Virus record (IMG/VR): IMGVR_UViG_3300042468_000170
Span: 1 to 22,875 of that record
DNA from: a virus
Direction: 5' to 3' (one strand)
Length of the DNA: 22,875 bases
A program made the position numbers and the translations under genes. Numbering within the stretch: the stretch's first letter is position 1; every line of letters begins with the position of its first letter. Below the pieces are notes generated by a model that made no database searches, was not told the origin of the DNA, and worked only from the letters and a program-made list of their open reading frames with translations. Below, in pieces: positions 2,876 to 22,679 of this stretch.

Positions 2876-3325
2876 TTAAAGGTCTCCCTCTTTTCGATTC
2901 TCGCTATAGTAAACGTCAAAGTGTCCGCCCGGGTATCGTGCTTCAAGTTTCTTGACGTTTTCAGCGACAACATCATTAGGGTCGAGATTCAATGCACGAC
3001 ATGCATTAACCCAATACCACATGATATCACCTAGTTCACGCTTCATGTGAAAGTGCGCTTCTTCATTGAGGGGCTTGCCCTGAAACACAATCTTCTTTAC
3101 GATTTCTTGAAACTCACCTGTCTCGCTACCAAGACCGATAGCACCACAAAGCAATAATGGTACATTGATATCTGGACCATGAACATACTCACCGTTCGGA
3201 CCATATGCTTCGTAATTGCCATCGATTCTGTCTAACACATTCATAAACGTAGTAAGATCATTACTTTGTTTACTAGTAACTGCTTCAACAAATTCCATAT
3301 ACTTGTTTAAATCTACATTATTCAT
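2876..3325 (-). CDS. mazG: MazG-like nucleoside triphosphate pyrophosphohydrolase
   Basis: This 149-aa protein carries the all-alpha NTP-PPase metal site: E68-x-x-E71 (GSETGEFQE) and E97-x-x-D100 (RELGDIMWYW). The expected downstream KKLEARYP segment is also present. MazG-type enzymes hydrolyse (d)NTPs to monophosphates; in phages they are linked to nucleotide-pool adjustment or ppGpp-related effects, but the substrate cannot be told from sequence. The ATG overlaps the stop of the 64-aa upstream gene by four bases (ATGA), which implies translational coupling. It is the last gene of the operon that starts from the promoter at 4681-4709. Confidence 0.88.
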   Translation of the reverse strand: MNNVDLNKYMEFVEAVTSKQSNDLTTFMNVLDRIDGNYEAYGPNGEYVHGPDINVPLLLCGAIGLGSETGEFQEIVKKIVFQGKPLNEEAHFHMKRELGDIMWYWVNACRALNLDPNDVVAENVKKLEARYPGGHFDVYYSENRKEGDL

Positions 3326-7881: not shown

Positions 7882-8298
7882 ATGAAAAACACTTCGGCAG
7901 GTTTATTCTTTTACAGTAAAAATACGGGTAGATTCTTATATCTATTGCGTAATGATGCCAATCATAGTTGGGGCGTGCCGGGCGGTAAGGTAGAAGAAGA
8001 TGAAACGTTGTTTGAAGGATTAGAACGCGAATGTGTAGAAGAGATTGGACATTTTCCAAAAGATGCCAAATTGATTCCTATACAGAAATTTGTCAATAAG
8101 ACTTTCACTTATCACACATTTTTCTGTTCAGTAGATGATGAGTTCATTCCTGTATTGAATGATGAGCATATCGGCTATGCTTGGGTAGGTGAGAATCAAC
8201 ATCCTAAACCAATGCATCCCGGATTGTTTAGCACAATCAATATTGATATTGTGAAAGAAAAATTAAAAAATCTTACTGAAAATAAAAACGGGGCTTAA
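7882..8298 (+). CDS. Nudix hydrolase
   Basis: This 138-aa protein carries a complete Nudix box: G35, E41, then R49-E50-C-V-E53-E54-I-G56 (the G-x5-E-x7-REUxEExGU pattern). It follows a canonical SWGVPGGKVEEDET entry loop. The family hydrolyses nucleoside diphosphate-linked compounds; in phages the suggested roles are cleaning oxidised nucleotides or decapping/ADP-ribose turnover, and the substrate is not readable here. The N-terminal strand (TSAGLFFYSK...RFLYLLRN) and length fit single-domain family members. The stop codon TAA lies inside the terminator palindrome, so the last codons form the stem. A promoter candidate lies directly upstream with no leader, suggesting expression separate from the late gp14-gp15 mRNA. 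Confidence 0.9.
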   Translation: MKNTSAGLFFYSKNTGRFLYLLRNDANHSWGVPGGKVEEDETLFEGLERECVEEIGHFPKDAKLIPIQKFVNKTFTYHTFFCSVDDEFIPVLNDEHIGYAWVGENQHPKPMHPGLFSTINIDIVKEKLKNLTENKNGA

Positions 8299-11619: not shown

Positions 11620-12309
11620 TTACAAGAACTGCGTATAATATTTGTCTAGTCTAGTATACCATAGATCAGTATACTTGTCAAAATCAGCACCCTCTATTAT
11701 GAATTCTTGATATTCATTTGCGGCTGAACACATGAAAATAACGCCCTTACGTATTTTAGTGCCCCAGACTTCATTGTGTGCTGTTGCATAGGCCGCAGTC
11801 TGCACAAAATAGTCTTCGATCCACTCACGCTTCTTGGGCTTGTTCGTCTGCTTGTGGTCCATTATCGCTTCTTGACCACCATGGACACCTACTAAGTCTG
11901 TGGTCCCTGCATAAACTTCAGGAAAGTATAAAGATACTTCCGTGCCCCAGAACTCGGTGCAGTTGGATAGTCCTTTAGATATGATTGAATGTGCCATCTG
12001 ATGGCTTTGGATACTGTATGGATTGCTACCGGGCTCACCTGTGACTCCTGTCTTTACATAGTTCTCAAGCCACTTGTGCATTCGTGTTCCACGACCAGCG
12101 GCTTCAGTAGTGATCTGTTGAGCCTTCTCAGGTCCAACACGCTTGCGCCACTCATGTAACGCTTTCTTGCTCTCTTCAGATTTTGTAGCATCTAAGATAG
12201 TTGTCACGCTAGGAACAGCATGACCATCGGGAGTCATATATTTTCTTGAGCCGTTAATGGTCTCGCGTTTTAACTCTTTATATGGGAATTTATCAGGTGT
12301 ATAAATCAA
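11620..12309 (-). CDS. MGME1-like PD-(D/E)XK exonuclease
   Basis: This 229-aa RecB-family nuclease has RGTRMHKWLE (H78), E124 in GTEVSLY, AGTTDLVG (D138), IMDHKQT (D151-x-K153) and QTAAYA (Q170). This is the full metal-binding set of MGME1/Cas4-type single-strand exonucleases. A role in phage recombination, repair or host DNA breakdown is likely. The N-terminal PDGHAVPSVTTILDATK is typical of the phage version and argues against starting at the internal ATG (residue 25). The frame therefore appears to start at a TTG that overlaps the iscA stop (TTGA), implying coupling to iscA. Start-codon choice is the main uncertainty. Confidence 0.82.
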   Translation of the reverse strand: MIYTPDKFPYKELKRETINGSRKYMTPDGHAVPSVTTILDATKSEESKKALHEWRKRVGPEKAQQITTEAAGRGTRMHKWLENYVKTGVTGEPGSNPYSIQSHQMAHSIISKGLSNCTEFWGTEVSLYFPEVYAGTTDLVGVHGGQEAIMDHKQTNKPKKREWIEDYFVQTAAYATAHNEVWGTKIRKGVIFMCSAANEYQEFIIEGADFDKYTDLWYTRLDKYYTQFL

Positions 12310-12626
12310 ACTCTAAAACTCTCTCCGCATCCACAGCGGTCTTTTTCATTAGGGTTGATGAATTCAAAGCCTTCATTCAACCCTTGTCTTTTATAGTCTA
12401 TGGTCATTCCTGTTAGATAAACAAATGATTTTGGATCGATAAACACTTTAAATTCTTCATAATCAATAACATGATCATGTTCAACGTGGTTATCCACAAA
12501 CTCTAATACGTAAGCAAGTCCAGAACATCCTGTAGTCTTGACACCAATTTTGATGCCTAGACCTTGACCACGTTTATTGAGATGGTGTTTAATTTTTGTT
12601 TTTGCTATCTCAGTCAAAACAATCAT
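12306..12626 (-). CDS. iscA: A-type iron-sulfur cluster carrier (IscA/ErpA/HesB family)
   Basis: This 106-aa protein keeps all three cluster-binding cysteines at family positions: C34 (TTGCSGLAY), C98 and C100 (DRCGCGESF), which match E. coli IscA C35/C99/C101. FINPNEKD before the CxC is also diagnostic. A-type carriers deliver Fe-S clusters to apoproteins. As a phage auxiliary gene it may support host or phage Fe-S enzymes; the next gene is a Cas4/MGME1-like nuclease, a group in which some members bind Fe-S. The ATG has no Shine-Dalgarno but has TATAAT exactly six bases upstream, so the mRNA may be leaderless. Its stop overlaps the exonuclease start. Confidence 0.93.
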   Translation of the reverse strand: MIVLTEIAKTKIKHHLNKRGQGLGIKIGVKTTGCSGLAYVLEFVDNHVEHDHVIDYEEFKVFIDPKSFVYLTGMTIDYKRQGLNEGFEFINPNEKDRCGCGESFRV

Positions 12627-12661: not shown

Positions 12662-13000
12662 TTATTTGGTCATTGCTGACTTAGCCATCTTTGCGACGAC
12701 TTCTTTACTTTGCTCAGGAGGAGGGGCTTCGGCTTGTGCTGGTTGTTGTGGCTCTAAGCCTTTGAATACTACTGTGTCACCTTCTATGTTACTCACTACA
12801 TTTTTTAGTGGTTTATTTTGAATCATAGAATATAGATCGTTAGTTGAAAAAGTAAGATCAAACTTCCTAAAATAGGTCAATAGTTTATCTACTGTCCAGT
12901 TGTCTGTAATCTGCTGGTTTTCCAATGCGGTTTTAAGTTGATCGGTAGCGGCGATCAACTTAACTAACTTCGGATCATTGACGAATTCATAGAGGTACAT
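12662..13000 (-). CDS. conserved phage protein, possible virion/prohead component (112 aa)
   Basis: The N-terminus MYLYEF resembles those of two other proteins in this cluster (MRLNEL, MKINEL). Residues 35-70 (NWTVDKLLTYFRKFDLTF, then NDLYSMIQ) and the PLKNVVSNIEGD segment form the folded part. The tail is Pro/Gln/Ala-rich and ends in VAKMAKSAMTK. I have the impression of similar proteins in T4-like marine phages but cannot name a function. The ATG follows the upstream stop by one base with GAGG four bases before, so it is translated with the 13002-13706 gene. Confidence 0.65.
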   Translation of the reverse strand: MYLYEFVNDPKLVKLIAATDQLKTALENQQITDNWTVDKLLTYFRKFDLTFSTNDLYSMIQNKPLKNVVSNIEGDTVVFKGLEPQQPAQAEAPPPEQSKEVVAKMAKSAMTK

Positions 13001-13001
13001 T

Positions 13002-13706
13002 TTACCTCAACTCGCGACCAACTCCGCCTGCTGGTTCTGTTTCTGGTTCTTCTTCTGGTGCAATCTCTGCATCCATTTCAGCACCGGCAACTTCTTCACC
13101 ACCGGGGGTAGATGTAGCCGCAACGTCAGTAACAGCCATTTCTTCACCGCCTGTTGGAGGTGCACCTAATGCTTCAGGGCTACCAACACCAGTCAATGCA
13201 TTCATAGCATTTTGCATTTCAGATTTGCTCTGACTCAATGTTTGATTCAATGTAGTTAACGCGGTGCTTGCTGCCTGATTGAATGCACCTGATTCGTTGA
13301 CACCGATCTCTGATTGAATGCTGTCTGTCAATGCAGGTAGTTCTTTGACTAACATATCATTGACTTCTTCAATCATTTTCTGAAGGCTGTCGAGCATATC
13401 TTGTGCTGCCAAGATAACCTGTGATTTTTCTACCTGCTCGTTTTCAACAACGATTCTAGCAGATTTAGTATTTTTATAATGCTCTGTCAATGCTTGAGCC
13501 ATGAATACTAATTTCATGTATGAAGGATGCGTGTGGTTCTTGTAGAAATCAGGACTTGATTTTGCTTCCTTGATCAGTCCAACTACCTTCTCTAGCATAG
13601 TTTTAGCCTGTGCGCGATTCAGTCTTGATGTATCAAAACTGAAACCGAAGTTGGCCTTAAGAGCCTGTGACGCTGTGTGTGTTTTGTCTAGTTCGTTGAG
13701 TCTCAT
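13002..13706 (-). CDS. conserved T4-like marine phage virion-associated protein, scaffold-like
   Basis: This 234-aa protein is largely helical: RLNRAQAKTMLEKVVGLIKE, YMKLVFMAQALTEHY and VVENEQVEKSQVILAAQDML, followed by MLVKELPALTDSI. A Gln/Ser/Ala-rich coiled region comes next, then a long acidic, Gly/Pro/Glu-rich tail (EEPETEPAGG). Helical core plus acidic tail resembles internal scaffold or prohead-core proteins. Similar proteins are widespread in T4-like cyanophages, where I recall them as virion-structural; this is from memory, not a search. It starts MRLNEL, a possible capsid-targeting tag. A late box lies 25 bases upstream of the ATG, with GGGA as a weak Shine-Dalgarno. Confidence 0.7.
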   Translation of the reverse strand: MRLNELDKTHTASQALKANFGFSFDTSRLNRAQAKTMLEKVVGLIKEAKSSPDFYKNHTHPSYMKLVFMAQALTEHYKNTKSARIVVENEQVEKSQVILAAQDMLDSLQKMIEEVNDMLVKELPALTDSIQSEIGVNESGAFNQAASTALTTLNQTLSQSKSEMQNAMNALTGVGSPEALGAPPTGGEEMAVTDVAATSTPGGEEVAGAEMDAEIAPEEEPETEPAGGVGRELR

Positions 13707-15140: not shown

Positions 15141-15148
15141 TATTTATG
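15141..15148 (-). promoter_or_regulatory. late promoter box CATAAATA (gene 14717-15097)
   Basis: Late-type box with predicted start near 15135, giving a 38-base leader that contains a terminal hairpin and AGGAG. Confidence 0.62.
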
Positions 15149-15174: not shown

Positions 15175-16347
15175 CTAGCGTTGGCCAGCCAAATTTTGGC
15201 GGCTAAAGCCCATTCTATCTACAAATTTCAAGCCATTTGACACAAAACCTTCTTGGCTTTGCTGGCCACTCTGTAGATAGCCCTTGACTGGACTTTGCTC
15301 TGCTTGCTTTGCTAGTTGTTCGACTACTTGATTCTTGAGGTTATATACAGCGACCCATATATTGAACAGACCTTCTATGCCTGCTTTGTTGGCATTGATA
15401 TGATCTGATAACTTCTGTTTCATGCTAGGAGTCATAGGGCGGCTCTCAAAGTAGTCCATGAAGTCGCTTGCTAGATTGCTTAGATCACCCGATACGATCT
15501 TTTTATTGATATACGTTGTGAACAATTGATTAAATGTATTACGTGCTTGCGGAGCCTGCATCAATTTCTTTACTGCATTTCCATATTGCTTTACAGCAGA
15601 CTTAGCATTATTGACTAGCCCTTGATCTAGTTTCACTGAAGGGACTATAGGCATAGCACTAGGAATTATAGCGACATCGCTATTGTTCTTTAACTGACCT
15701 ATGCTACCGTTCAACGGAGTTGATTCATCAGTAGTAGCGGCATCAGCAGGAATAAATTGATGCACCGCGATACCAGCAGTCTTGCCTGTGATGAGTTTAC
15801 CTATCTCGCTATCAGCATCTACTGTATATGCTATACCGTTAGGATTCGCTTTAAATTTATACAAACCGTTTTGTTCTTTAAGCGGTTGCCCGAATAACAT
15901 GTCGCCCCAGTAGTAGCCCTGAGTTCCTTCACTTGCCTTCTGTAGACCGGCCCAAATGTTTGTAATGATATTATTAAGTTCACCACGGTCAACCCCCCTC
16001 GCTCTATCGTACTCTATGAATTGTTCTGGGCTGTATACTTTTCTTCCTGACAGGTCCTTCTTATTGAACATATGCTTATCCATGATGCTGAATTTTCTAT
16101 CAGGACCATGGCCAAATATTAATGCGGGATATCCGTCCCACTTAATAGTGATTGTTTTAGGATTCTTAGCAGTAGCAAGTATCGAACTGATAGCCTGATT
16201 TGCACCTGCAACATCTGACAATATTACTAGGTCTTCAGGGTGATCTAAGTGGCCTTTGCCCTCACGCAATAGTCTAGCATCTTCGTCAAATTGACGAAAT
16301 CTTTCTTTCATATGTTGAAAGAATTCCGGTTCGTTCTTAAACTTCAT
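15175..16347 (-). CDS. KWDG nucleotidyltransferase (ligase)-like phage protein, DUF6267-type
   Basis: This 390-aa protein contains ITIKWDGYPALIFG (K69-W-D-G72), the motif-I pattern of the DNA/RNA ligase and capping-enzyme superfamily in which the lysine is adenylated. A YYWGDMLFG stretch (residues 145-153) could be motif III and AGIAVHQF (191-198) a degenerate motif IV. I associate this layout with the phage family DUF6267, from memory. No motif V is obvious, so activity is uncertain. The C-terminal 190 residues are helical. Start at 16347 is chosen: it lies one base after the upstream stop, so translation is likely coupled; the TTG further up overlaps the previous gene. Function unknown; an RNA/DNA end-joining or modifying role is inference. 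Confidence 0.6.
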   Translation of the reverse strand: MKFKNEPEFFQHMKERFRQFDEDARLLREGKGHLDHPEDLVILSDVAGANQAISSILATAKNPKTITIKWDGYPALIFGHGPDRKFSIMDKHMFNKKDLSGRKVYSPEQFIEYDRARGVDRGELNNIITNIWAGLQKASEGTQGYYWGDMLFGQPLKEQNGLYKFKANPNGIAYTVDADSEIGKLITGKTAGIAVHQFIPADAATTDESTPLNGSIGQLKNNSDVAIIPSAMPIVPSVKLDQGLVNNAKSAVKQYGNAVKKLMQAPQARNTFNQLFTTYINKKIVSGDLSNLASDFMDYFESRPMTPSMKQKLSDHINANKAGIEGLFNIWVAVYNLKNQVVEQLAKQAEQSPVKGYLQSGQQSQEGFVSNGLKFVDRMGFSRQNLAGQR

Positions 16348-16348
16348 T

Positions 16349-17650
16349 TTATTTGTCTTGTTTTCTACCTTGATCTGAAACAGCCCATGCAATATTTGCT
16401 ATATCAGTCAAATCTTTATTAAGAGTTCCTGCCTTATAACTTTGCGGCATGCGCTTTAATATATCATCTACTTGTTGTTGTGAAGATCCAAAACTTATTC
16501 CTCTCAAGAAACCTTTCATGAAATTATCACGCAACCATGAACCAATGCTGGGCTTACCTGTTCCCGCTGCCGGTGCACCGGCTGCGGCTGGTTGAGCACC
16601 TGCGGCTGGTGCGGCTGCTGGTTGACCTGGGCGCTTAAACACTCCCTTGATCTTATCCATGATACCTTCATCAGTTTTCAAGAATCTATCTCTATCTTCT
16701 CTTTCTTTTCTCTTCTTAGCAAGCAGACCTTGGATACGGTTAACTGCTAATTCAGGATCATATCCTGCTTTCTTTAATGCATTTCTAAACTTCTCAGAAG
16801 AATGCATTTTATGATATATCTCCGTGAGTCTATCTTCACCTATACTCTCTTGTATAGTCTTCTGCTTATTGCCTTTAGCATACTGACCCATGAACTGCTG
16901 ATGTAAGTTCTTAACATCATAACCTGCATTATTTGCTTTAAGAATTTTATCACCTACTCTTATTAGATAATCTTTATTAAGACTTACTTTACCTAAATCG
17001 GCGGCGATCTCTTTTGCCATCTTGCTTTCAGGAGGAAGAGGTTTAGTTCCGGCTGGCTGTAACTTTCTCATCGCGCTAACGATCTTATCTACATTAACGT
17101 CAATTTCTGGTTTTGCCGCACCTTGCTTTTGACCAGTTGCGATTGCGGCGTCGCCAGGAGCCTTGACTTTTGCACCAGGTGCTGCCGGAGCCGGGTTGGG
17201 CTTTCCAGTTTGCGGGTCATAACCATTCGGTGCGGCTGCGATCCTGGCTTGTGTGGCTGCATTAGGGCTAGCAGGTGCGCCACCTGCTGCCGGCGCCGCA
17301 CCTGGTGTCTGACCTGCGGCTGCTGGTTGTGCTCCTGCACCGCCTGCTCCAGCACCTGCCGCACCTGCTTGTCCAGCACCGGCTGCGCCGCCCGGGGTGC
17401 CCAAATCTGAAGAAGTAGTATCAACTAAACCTTGCTGTATGGCTGTGTTTAATGCATTTGCACCTCTAGAAACAAACTTCTTAATAAAGATGTCCTGTGC
17501 TAACTGGTCTTCTGGGCTTAAACCAGACTTCTTGGCTCTTGCCATAGCACTACCCACGCCTTGTGTGTTAGTTGGCTGTGCTATCGCGCTGGCTGCTTGT
17601 CCTGCTTTTCCTAACATGTTTTGAAACATGTTTAATTCATTGATCTTCAT
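16349..17650 (-). CDS. Ala/Gly/Pro-rich low-complexity protein, possible internal virion protein
   Basis: This 433-aa protein starts MKINELNMFQNMLGKAGQAA, similar in its first six residues to MRLNEL of the 13002-13706 product. A short helical part is followed by a long Ala/Gly/Pro/Gln-rich linker (about residues 85-180) and a folded helical core (KIVSAMRKLQPAG, LNKDYLIRVGDKILKANNAG, YHKMHSSEKFRNALKKAGYD). A basic segment (AKKRKEREDRDRF), a second Ala/Pro-rich linker near 343-367 and a C-terminal helical domain complete it. The linkers make these stretches much more GC-rich than the rest. A good Shine-Dalgarno (GAGGA) precedes the ATG. The gene overlaps the upstream stop by 14 bases and is followed one base later by the KWDG gene. 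No enzymatic motif was seen. Confidence 0.7.
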   Translation of the reverse strand: MKINELNMFQNMLGKAGQAASAIAQPTNTQGVGSAMARAKKSGLSPEDQLAQDIFIKKFVSRGANALNTAIQQGLVDTTSSDLGTPGGAAGAGQAGAAGAGAGGAGAQPAAAGQTPGAAPAAGGAPASPNAATQARIAAAPNGYDPQTGKPNPAPAAPGAKVKAPGDAAIATGQKQGAAKPEIDVNVDKIVSAMRKLQPAGTKPLPPESKMAKEIAADLGKVSLNKDYLIRVGDKILKANNAGYDVKNLHQQFMGQYAKGNKQKTIQESIGEDRLTEIYHKMHSSEKFRNALKKAGYDPELAVNRIQGLLAKKRKEREDRDRFLKTDEGIMDKIKGVFKRPGQPAAAPAAGAQPAAAGAPAAGTGKPSIGSWLRDNFMKGFLRGISFGSSQQQVDDILKRMPQSYKAGTLNKDLTDIANIAWAVSDQGRKQDK

Positions 17651-17885
17651 CTTTCTTCCTCAGTGATTTAGCGAATCGATGCGCATCCTTACCCTTGATA
17701 GCACTTAATAGTTTCTTTTCAAGGATTTCCGCTTTTTCTGGAGAATATTGTCGGTTCATCAATTCAATCAGATTGATGGCGCTAGTGATGACATTATGAG
17801 CCCTGCTCTCAATTACATGGTTCATGTCGCGGTTATTACCGATAATTTCCAGTTCTTCTAAAAGGCTACGTGTACGCTTTTGCAT
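17637..17885 (-). CDS. small helical conserved phage protein (82 aa)
   Basis: This basic, fully helical protein contains RTRSLLEELEIIGNNRDMNH, then ESRAHNVITSAINLIELMN, and ends KSLRKKDEDQ. Similar short proteins occur near virion genes in T4-like marine phages, in my recollection, without a named function. AAGGA lies seven bases before the ATG. A late box precedes it, so it heads the late unit that continues with the Ala/Gly/Pro-rich protein (14-base overlap) and the KWDG protein. Confidence 0.7.
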   Translation of the reverse strand: MQKRTRSLLEELEIIGNNRDMNHVIESRAHNVITSAINLIELMNRQYSPEKAEILEKKLLSAIKGKDAHRFAKSLRKKDEDQ

Positions 17886-17901: not shown

Positions 17902-17909
17902 TATTTATC
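17902..17909 (-). promoter_or_regulatory. late promoter box GATAAATA (gene 17637-17885 and downstream)
   Basis: Late-type box in the 38-base gap after the helicase gene. The predicted transcription start near 17896 is the first A of AGGA, so the 11-base leader is only the ribosome-binding site and spacer. Confidence 0.62.
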
Positions 17910-21229: not shown

Positions 21230-21613
21230 ATGACGATTTCAAAAGATTTTTTTAAGAAGTTAACCGACAATCACCCCTTTATAACGGTCGTTTCCTTTGC
21301 CAGCCAAGATTATGTGGGAATAATGCAGAACCGAGATGATCAATGTACTAGCATATATGATTATGGTTCTATAGTAGATGTAAAGGTAAAAGAGTTGTTT
21401 CTAGAGTTAGGCGAGGTCTGGTGGTGGGAAAGTAACCGTCAGATACCTATCAATATTTTCCTCAAGGAAGAATGGAATCTATTCAAGCCCTATCTGAGGA
21501 CATTTAACAATAAGAATTTAACCGTATTACACGGCCCTATAGTGAGCCTAAACGAACTTAACAAGCGCAAGACAAAGCGCCGTAGTATAACGTTAGTTAA
21601 GCGGCTTCCTTGA
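21230..21613 (+). CDS. phage protein of unknown function (127 aa)
   Basis: This basic protein appears conserved in aquatic phages, in my recollection. It has an SFASQDYVGIMQNRDD strand region near the N-terminus and a Trp-rich EVWWWESNRQIPINIFL motif near residues 62-78. The LRTFNNKNLTVLHGPIVSLN segment is followed by a basic end (KRKTKRRSITLVKRLP). It may bind nucleic acid or be a small virion assembly factor; no family can be named. It is the only plus-strand gene in this part of the window, with its own exact TATAAATA box. Its end overlaps the convergent deformylase gene by 21 bases. Confidence 0.7.
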   Translation: MTISKDFFKKLTDNHPFITVVSFASQDYVGIMQNRDDQCTSIYDYGSIVDVKVKELFLELGEVWWWESNRQIPINIFLKEEWNLFKPYLRTFNNKNLTVLHGPIVSLNELNKRKTKRRSITLVKRLP

Positions 21614-22090
21614 TCGCTTCTTTCTGCGATTTTTAGCCATTTCTAGGCTGAGTTTTCCTACCCTAGTGTCAAAACAAACCCCATTCAAATGATCAGACTC
21701 ATGCTGATAGACTCTAGATATTAGTCCTGAAAACTCAGTCTCTATAATTCCACCCAACGCATTCTGATATTTGACTTTGATAGTGTCTGCTCTTCTGACA
21801 CGCAACCATAATTCAGGAAAACTTAAACAACCTTCTTGATCCATGATGTTGCCATCTGCTTCTATGATCTCAGGATTGATACAAGCATATAATTTGTCTT
21901 TATTGCCCATGACAAAAATACGTTTACTTAAACCCACCTGCGGTCCTGCTAGACCGATACCGTTGCTCTCTATCATGATCCTAGCCATGTCTTTGATGAT
22001 ATCGCTAGGGTCTCCGTCAGTCTCAAAGTCCCATGGTTCTGCGGTCAATCTTAATATAGGATCATTTTCTTTAACTAATTGTAAGTTCAT
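21593..22090 (-). CDS. def: peptide deformylase
   Basis: This 165-aa enzyme removes the formyl group from N-terminal methionine of new proteins. All three signature motifs are intact: GIGLAGPQ (44-51), EGCLS (86-90) and QHESDHL (129-135). C88, H130 and H134 are the metal ligands and E131 is the catalytic glutamate. The GP in motif 1, instead of the usual AA, is a variation. Phage deformylases are known in T4-like marine phages as auxiliary genes, thought to aid maturation of abundant proteins. The C-terminus is a short basic tail (NRRKKRSRKPLN). The ATG overlaps the end of the DnaE-like gene by 20 bases; there is no clear Shine-Dalgarno, so coupling is likely. Confidence 0.95.
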   Translation of the reverse strand: MNLQLVKENDPILRLTAEPWDFETDGDPSDIIKDMARIMIESNGIGLAGPQVGLSKRIFVMGNKDKLYACINPEIIEADGNIMDQEGCLSFPELWLRVRRADTIKVKYQNALGGIIETEFSGLISRVYQHESDHLNGVCFDTRVGKLSLEMAKNRRKKRSRKPLN

Positions 22091-22679
22091 TGGATAACAA
22101 ATTCATGTGTACTACGACCAGATGCGCATACGCCACCGCATGCGACTTCTTGAAACTATATGTACCTTCTTCTTTGTCCCATATAGTCTTATTCACTTCT
22201 GACCAAGGTAGTCCTATCAGATGTTTTTTACCCGGTCGTATAACGGCTAAGAACATTGCTAGTCTTGGTATACTATTTACTGGTTCAGGCATCTTACGCA
22301 AACTATTATAATGATTACCCAAGTGTATCAACTTTTCTACAAATGAAGGATCGTTTAATTTATTCCAGTCTGGTTCAGCCATCAACTCTACAAGATGTTT
22401 TTCATCACGCACATTCTTATAAACGTGTACATTGAGCATGTCGATTTTCATATAGCCACGTTCTTCTGCGTCTACATAATCGATAGATGCCATATCATTG
22501 ACAGGGTCGTAAGGTATATCTGTTACATAAACGCCTGTCGCATGTTTACGTATAGTAGATTGATGATTAGCATAGTTGGAAACTTTAGCATTGCGCATTG
22601 CGGCAGAGGTATGACTAATCTTTTGCAAAATCAATTCACGATCTGCAAAGTCAATATCAATATCACTCTTAAATTTCAT
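22071..22679 (-). CDS. miniature DnaE (DNA polymerase III alpha)-like protein
   Basis: This 202-aa protein carries several signatures of bacterial C-family DNA polymerases in the right order. They are DIDIDF (residues 6-11), like PDxDxDF with the catalytic aspartates; RKHATGVYVTD (44-54), like KHAGGVVIA; GYMKIDML (75-82), like GLVKFDFLGL with the third aspartate (D80); FLAVIRPG (143-150), like ALFRPGPL; and SFKKSHAVAYAHLVV (175-189), like FNKSHSAAYALVSY. Bacterial DnaE is about 1,160 aa and spends about 150 residues between the first and third aspartates; here it is about 70. PHP domain, most of the fingers and the beta-binding end are missing. Neighbouring frames hold no further DnaE sequence, so this is a compact gene rather than a fragment of a split one. 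It starts 3 bases after the upstream stop. Function unknown. Confidence 0.6.
   Translation of the reverse strand: MKFKSDIDIDFADRELILQKISHTSAAMRNAKVSNYANHQSTIRKHATGVYVTDIPYDPVNDMASIDYVDAEERGYMKIDMLNVHVYKNVRDEKHLVELMAEPDWNKLNDPSFVEKLIHLGNHYNSLRKMPEPVNSIPRLAMFLAVIRPGKKHLIGLPWSEVNKTIWDKEEGTYSFKKSHAVAYAHLVVVHMNLLSNELTIS

Follow-up and report, generated by a model that had tools for sequence, protein, structure and literature searches.

The gene at 15175-16347 on the minus strand of the window, a 22,875-nucleotide stretch of viral DNA (positions 1 to 22,875 of IMG/VR record IMGVR_UViG_3300042468_000170), encodes a 390-residue protein of the DUF6267 family that, judging by structure models, almost certainly combines a ligase-type fold with an intact catalytic site. 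The plus strand of the same interval is rich in stops in the translated frame. Taken as a whole, our tentative reading is that the product is a late-made, capsid-internal, self-adenylating polynucleotide ligase that would be injected with the DNA. The modelled fold and the catalytic set of DUF6267 are well supported, and adenylation, encapsidation, injection, ligation and substrate are steps that we infer. In the sources searched, DUF6267 (PF19782), which corresponds to phrog_455 and to T4-GC 71 of cyanophages, is known so far only as a family without a function, and DUF6267, DUF6433, phrog_455 and T4-GC 71 were met by name in no paper of the literature searched, which covered few subscription papers and preprints.

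A preliminary description of this DNA, made from the letters alone, had proposed DUF6267 as one of several candidate families, and this guess was correct: PF19782 matches residues 33-387 at E 2.4e-38 (132.9 bits against a cut-off of 27, with profile positions 3-373 of 376 covered), and phrog_455 matches at E 8.7e-21. Profiles of ATP-dependent DNA ligase (PF01068) and of the RNA ligase families PF09414 and PF09511 gave no match to the protein up to E 1, the whole window held no PF01068 candidate, and sequence searches of the protein against NCBIfam and the PDB returned nothing. A profile search of the PDB brought up viral fusion proteins within the helical insert at a best E of 0.35, which were taken as chance matches.

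Searching with tblastn linked the window protein to 83 phage records, mostly cyanophages, every match lying below 60% identity, and identity to the DUF6267 proteins of isolates was at most 27.5% among the 40 matches listed. Relatives were assembled from five viral-contig scans with different member seeds, at most the best 80 loci being taken per scan, and one scan of bacterial and archaeal assemblies (loci L001-L080 and L084-L420); 420 open frames match the family profile, 402 with a near-complete domain were retained, and 296 of these are distinct. There is also a short form of about 300 residues with a smaller insert, one member of which matches PF19782 at E 7.5e-79; the short form (L307-L387, L421 and L422) has neither the LxE junction described below nor a cytidylyltransferase neighbour in view. 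A marine long-form query matched 468 phage records (368 Synechococcus, 61 Cyanophage, 24 Prochlorococcus and others), and because these counts lie close to those of UvsX (375 Synechococcus and 61 Cyanophage records; totals compared, records unpaired), they suggest that DUF6267 may be nearly universal in T4-like cyanophages.

The catalytic positions are the firmest feature of the family. All 296 distinct relatives share K69, D71, G72, P74, G79, K91, D149, P169, Y174, H196, N281, K338, E366, G367, V369 and K374 with the window protein, and the catalytic positions hold even where identity to it falls to 19%. Along the chain, K-x-D-G, K, D, (H), E-G-x-V and K follow one another as, on our reading, motifs I, Ia, III, IIIa, IV and V do in covalent nucleotidyltransferases; the assignments follow from order, predicted strands and fold. 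All coordinates here being on the minus strand, motif I is K69-W-D71-G72 (16132-16143), with K69 as the proposed adenylated lysine; the position of motif Ia, placed by order and predicted strand, is K91 (16075-16077); motif III is G148-D149 (15901-15906), G148 being present in 295 of the 296; H196 (15760-15762) stands at the position of motif IIIa; motif IV is E366-G367-F-V369 (15241-15252); and K374 (15226-15228) is the lysine of motif V. Between motifs IIIa and IV, the model and the alignment place a helical insert (residues 241-349; 15301-15627) that contains the invariant N281 and K338.

The preliminary description had drawn attention to KWDG, GDMLFG and AGIAVH, and all three are present in the minus-strand frame 16347-15175, at residues 69-72, 148-153 and 191-196, respectively; K69, whose lack of conservation it had named as grounds for rejection, is kept in every one of the distinct relatives. 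Its proposal of GDMLFG as motif III holds in that the acidic D149 is invariant, with the reservation that D stands in place of the usual E. Its choice of AGIAVH as motif IV had to be abandoned because residues 191 and 192 vary (A in 44 and G in 219 of the 296 relatives), only H196 being invariant, and the EGFV of residues 366-369 was assigned as motif IV instead, with K374 as V. The aspartate of motif III and the single lysine of the motif V stretch were counted against a ligase reading, and the polypeptide, which extends 16 residues beyond K374, has no OB or C-terminal domain after motif V.

An AlphaFold2 model of the window protein built with 64 relatives reached a pLDDT of 92.8 and a pTM of 0.87. 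Among its best 50 VIA-align matches, the first 36 are polynucleotide ligases by title (Z 7.6 to 5.0), headed by Naegleria RNA ligase at 7.6; row 37, at Z 4.8, is not a ligase, and mostly unrelated proteins follow, together with two poxvirus replication-complex entries and a capping enzyme. The model of a 297-residue short relative (pLDDT 90.8) gave ligases in 50 of its best 50 matches, 13 rows having Z of at least 8, all of them Naegleria RNA ligase, with a best value of 9.2 over 180 residues at 3.7 Å; the first tally includes three chains of end-joining complexes that we take to be ligase IV, and the second was counted in the same way. Since models without a clear match typically peak at Z 7 to 8 and the window model stays below 8, weight is placed on the uniformity of the ligase list, and Foldseek against the PDB yielded no match under E 0.001 for either model. 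Where residues 2-291 of the short model align with 143-339 of the Naegleria ligase, the distance to the end of the range is 26 residues for E265 and 14 for K277, against 27 and 13 for E312 and K326 of the Naegleria enzyme, which are mutated in entry titles; going by the ends of the ranges, we infer that the modelled E265 and K277 may correspond to them. Profile-profile comparison of DUF6267 with T4 RnlA, RnlB and gp30 was not significant, by a method of low power here, as its controls reached only 21% (RnlA-RnlB) and 0.1% (RnlB-gp30). The predicted fold is nearest to the nucleotidyltransferase domains of ligases, in line with the adenylation domain that the preliminary description had expected, and its reading of a covalent nucleotidyltransferase fold is supported both by the invariant motif set of PF19782 and by the ligase-type models.

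The gene closes a minus-strand run (17885-15175) in which an 82-residue protein (17637-17885; phrog_11854, 'virion structural protein', E 1.5e-14) is followed by an Ala/Gly/Pro-rich protein (16349-17650) and then by DUF6267. As first described, the last two are directly adjacent, with the upstream frame ending at 16349, the ATG at 16347 and one base between them. The 82-residue protein is present in 69 of the 80 best window-like loci, and the Ala/Gly/Pro-rich protein has a tblastn match in 43 of these 80, its place being covered in 73. Seventeen nucleotides upstream of the first gene (17885) lies a late-promoter-like ATAAATA (17902-17908, minus). This heptamer shows no overall excess in the window (8 seen, 9.6 expected), and all seven minus-strand copies lie no more than 100 nt upstream of one of 25 hand-chosen gene starts on that strand, a zone that takes in 10.9% of the positions and 24.6% of the 7-mers made up of A and T alone.

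Conservation of the site was seen at the head of the run, where WTAAATA occurs within 60 nt before the first gene in 53 of the 66 window-like loci with enough sequence; the distinct upstream sequences number 34, of which 26 have it, and chance would give 0.032 per locus. The next minus-strand copy (15141-15147) lies past the DUF6267 gene, ahead of the gene that follows. Within 150 nt directly upstream of DUF6267, late-promoter-like sites were found in none of 78 window-like (5.3 expected), 78 pelagiphage-like (1.1) and 74 short loci (1.7), in 15 of 78 P-RSM6-like (5.1), in 3 of 49 S-PM2-like (2.2) and in 6 of 32 other loci (1.4). As far as sequence can tell, the late site of the window lineage heads the gene run and not DUF6267 itself.

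Elsewhere in the window, on the minus strand, are genes for a dNMP-kinase-like protein (210-842; E 2.8e-11), a MazG-type pyrophosphohydrolase (2876-3325; E 6e-10), an iron-sulphur cluster biosynthesis protein (Fe-S_biosyn, 12306-12626; E 5.3e-19), a peptide deformylase (21593-22090; E 2e-39) and a 202-residue product (22071-22679) that matches phrog_11778 DNA polymerase over profile positions 4-194 of 197, a short or split polymerase piece; a NUDIX hydrolase (7882-8298; E 6.7e-15) is encoded on the plus strand.

Evidence for a place inside the capsid comes from the N-terminus. In the window lineage, the conserved domain starts KGHLDHPED and is preceded by a variable extension closing with [LIVM]-x-E and a single further residue. 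In the window protein, this extension, a proposed capsid-targeting propeptide, comprises residues 1-29 (16261-16347, minus), and the junction reads LLRE29|G, with G30 leading into the conserved domain; residues 26-29 are those with pLDDT below 50 in the model. The 79 window-like members have 43 distinct extensions, 20-30 residues long from the methionine and forming 18 clusters at 50% identity, which are not independent events since the members are related; in all 43, [LIVM]xE stands two residues ahead of the conserved K (mean of shuffles 1.6, maximum 7), and the residue after E is A in 19, D in 12, G in 11 and S in 1. Counted otherwise, the motif is present in 36 of 36 distinct junctions and 45 of 45 distinct upstream segments of this lineage.

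The same junction recurs in some other lineages, namely in 18 of 19 junctions and 20 of 20 pro-segments of pelagiphage-like members (shuffle maximum 8; 4 frames unparsed) and in 15 of 27 junctions and 15 of 20 pro-segments from bacterial-assembly loci (shuffle maximum 5; 3 unparsed). It was found in none of the 25 P-RSM6-like, 10 S-PM2-like and 38 short distinct junctions, P-RSM6-like proteins starting with M-A at the very junction position, and the S-SM1 protein has a different N-terminus with no LxE junction; capsid targeting by this signal is thus not family-wide. Because 37 of 143 open frames of one relative have some LxE plus a small residue within their first 45 residues, the motif means little in a single protein, and the weight lies on its fixed place.

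Comparable junctions occur in T4, whose record names gp23 and gp24 as cleaved by gp21; the two proteins read FLTE|A and LLRE|S, which we take to be the exact cut positions. The gp23 homologue of a 244-kb relative reads LLAE|S at the start of its match to mature T4 gp23, with three more LxE earlier. Some DUF6267 relatives, several of them from assemblies, start MHNFKSFITES or MKSYKQFLIEA, similar to the MKTYQEFIAEA of T4 ipII/ipIII. For T4 ipI, a precursor of 95 residues and a mature form of 76, as given in an excerpt of the source (PMC3012670), imply a cut after ITE19. On this sequence pattern, DUF6267 is probably capsid-internal in the window lineage, and late expression and a virion role, both guessed beforehand, gain support from the conserved late-promoter-like site and the junction of prohead-protease type. 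Three other minus-strand products of the window, the Ala/Gly/Pro-rich protein and those of 13002-13706 and 12662-13000, start MKINEL, MRLNEL and MYLYEF, respectively, resembling the MAKINELLRE of T4 gp24, and may be further capsid-targeted proteins; the product of 13002-13706 also matches phrog_14154, a virion structural protein (E 3.3e-11).

The explanation that we favour joins these lines of evidence as follows. DUF6267 of the window would belong to the ligase superfamily as a divergent covalent nucleotidyltransferase with a single domain, made late; its N-terminal extension would steer it into the prohead, the phage prohead protease would trim it after E29, and the trimmed protein would be packed with the DNA and then injected. 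The nucleotide charged onto K69 would most likely be AMP derived from ATP, and the enzyme would close breaks with 3'-OH and 5'-phosphate ends in nucleic acid, either as infection begins or while the head is being filled, breaks in phage DNA being favoured over RNA only just. Covalent nucleotidyl transfer is, on the models, highly probable, and end joining somewhat favoured; our initial slight leaning towards DNA over RNA as substrate was brought down to an even balance by a kinase-like neighbour in pelagiphages.

This neighbour is one of the points that speak for an RNA ligase repairing RNA, such as nuclease-cut tRNAs, whether virion-delivered or made late, a reading that we regard as rather unlikely. 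RNA repair often relies on a pair of kinase and ligase, and the pelagiphage HTVC008M encodes, two genes downstream of DUF6267, a P-loop kinase-like protein (L083:9730-10392; Zeta_toxin E 3.1e-13, AAA_33 E 3.8e-11), relatives of which are present in 54 of the 80 best pelagiphage-like and 6 of 33 assembly loci; this lends some weight to RNA repair, as do the nearest folds of the short relative, namely Naegleria (9.2), T4 Rnl2 (7.5), fungal Trl1 (7.0) and trypanosome REL1 (6.9), while among its best 50 matches no entry with DNA ligase in its title exceeds Z 6.4. However, the kinase-like gene was not found in the best window-like (0 of 80), P-RSM6-like (0 of 80), S-PM2-like (0 of 64) and short loci (0 of 80), its Zeta_toxin/AAA_33 match names no polynucleotide kinase, and a separate PF09414 RNA ligase already occurs in one of the three window-like records searched, which are possibly incomplete. 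The kinase-like protein of HTVC008M starts MIPFILKEG, which resembles a capsid-targeting start. A different partner raises the prospect, in our view improbable, of a nucleotidyltransferase that is no ligase and that, with a cytidylyltransferase-like protein, modifies protein, sugar or nucleotide, perhaps carried in the virion as T4 Alt is. Of 65 S-PM2-like members, 54 have such a domain fused to DUF6267; in other groups it is encoded no more than 1.5 kb away, in 78 of 80 P-RSM6-like and 51 of 80 pelagiphage-like loci (best 80 each) and in 16 of 33 assembly loci; in S-SM1 its gene, T4-GC190, overlaps the DUF6267 homologue by 14 nt, and an excerpt of the virion study (PMC3037559) gives its product as detected in S-SM1 virions and not detected in those of S-PM2. 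The S-SM1 finding was also counted for encapsidation in our favoured reading, and the S-PM2 one against it. The S-SM1 product starts MKKFSAFLNEA, and within the first 16 residues LxE followed by a small residue appears in 48 of 76 distinct partner N-termini (a count with no shuffle control), the 20 pelagiphage ones listed having none. The fusion of S-PM2 appears as two family frames in an older record (L292) and as a single 591-residue frame in LN828717 (L082), and since the later record has one frame, the separate T4-GC71 and T4-GC190 counts for this phage may be an artefact. Against a non-ligase role, no partner was seen in the best 80 window-like or the best 80 short loci, of which 15 and 16, respectively, had less than 1.5 kb downstream in view, though PF01467 occurs somewhere in 6 of 10 window-like records; the nearest folds, moreover, are those of polynucleotide ligases. 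A dead or structural reuse of the ligase fold in the capsid would fit the late site and the maturation junction, but with catalytic positions unchanged across so divergent a family it is very improbable.

A further alternative concerns the replication fork. Excerpts of two reviews describe T4-like cyanophages as having no recognised DNA ligase: homologues of g30 were not found in cyanomyoviruses (PMC2984593), and most jumbo phages of the cyanophage type have no known ligase but a stand-alone ligase DNA-binding domain, AAX44695.1, suggested to recruit the host ligase (PMC7824862). This domain is DUF6433, and together with DUF6267 it might form a split replicative ligase, the missing one of T4-like cyanophages, which we consider doubtful. 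DUF6267 lies between the gp41 helicase and gp61 primase genes in P-RSM6, S-PM2, P-HM1 and S-SM1; DUF6433 is found in 474 phage records, close in number and make-up to the 468 of DUF6267; and all seven named genomes have both genes and no ligase of PF01068, PF01653, PF09414 or PF09511, the last searched with T4 as a positive control. Co-occurrence is weak proof, however, as both are common genes of one clade, and DUF6433 is absent from eight of eight window-like records, all possibly incomplete, as well as from fragments G011 and G017. The match of DUF6433 to gp30 falls at the N-terminus as expected but lacks significance (E 0.046, against 0.015 for an unrelated control), the short-form gene of P-SSM2 and S-SM2 is not near gp41 or gp61, and the extension and late site point to a late role in the window lineage. 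A canonical DNA ligase was present in one of the ten window-like records searched, which are possibly incomplete; like the separate RNA ligase noted above, it tells against our favoured reading. DUF6433 homologues of S-SCSM2R and S-SCSM1 (H101-H103; about 175 residues matched) are annotated 'DNA ligase', the query being only the proposed DNA-binding domain.

Altogether, the late-made, injected ligase remains our favoured reading for the window lineage, and DUF6267, with its predicted ligase fold and its presence in hundreds of genomes, becomes a named candidate for the ligase missing from cyanophages. The widest claim, that T4-like phages infecting cyanobacteria, SAR11 and other bacteria share a previously unrecognised ligase family, which is capsid-loaded, processed and injected in several lineages and which, with DUF6433, is the missing replisome ligase of marine cyanophages, is an unlikely one in its entirety. 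We know of no packaged polynucleotide ligase in a tailed phage; if capsid targeting is true, a catalytic nucleic-acid enzyme would be added to the known injected phage proteins, and the targeting signal would come and go within one family.

Among known systems, the closest solved fold for both models is the Naegleria RNA ligase (NgrRnl), which has the same I-III-IV-V order of motifs; in most rows only its residues 143-339 are aligned, at about 9% identity, and DUF6267 differs from it by the helical insert. T4 Rnl2, fungal Trl1, trypanosome REL1 and archaeal RNA ligases share with DUF6267 the fold class (Z 5.5-7.5 for the short model) and a nucleophile motif of the form Lys-x-(D/H)-G; unlike these enzymes, DUF6267 has no C-terminal domain after motif V and no match to PF09414 or PF09511. 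With T4 gp30 and the ATP-dependent DNA ligases, whose motifs take the forms KxDG, GD/GE, EG-x-V and K, DUF6267 has this order in common (T4 ligase Z 5.7 for the window model), whereas its polypeptide, unlike gp30, carries no DNA-binding or OB domain and does not match PF01068. Within its own family, the window lineage stands apart from other DUF6267 in having the N-terminal extension with its LxE junction and in being without the cytidylyltransferase neighbour. In this extension, it resembles T4 ipI, ipII, ipIII and gp24, in which an N-terminal segment ending in [L/I]-x-E likewise precedes the mature protein; these T4 proteins are not called ligases in their annotations, whereas DUF6267 is a predicted enzyme of 360 residues.
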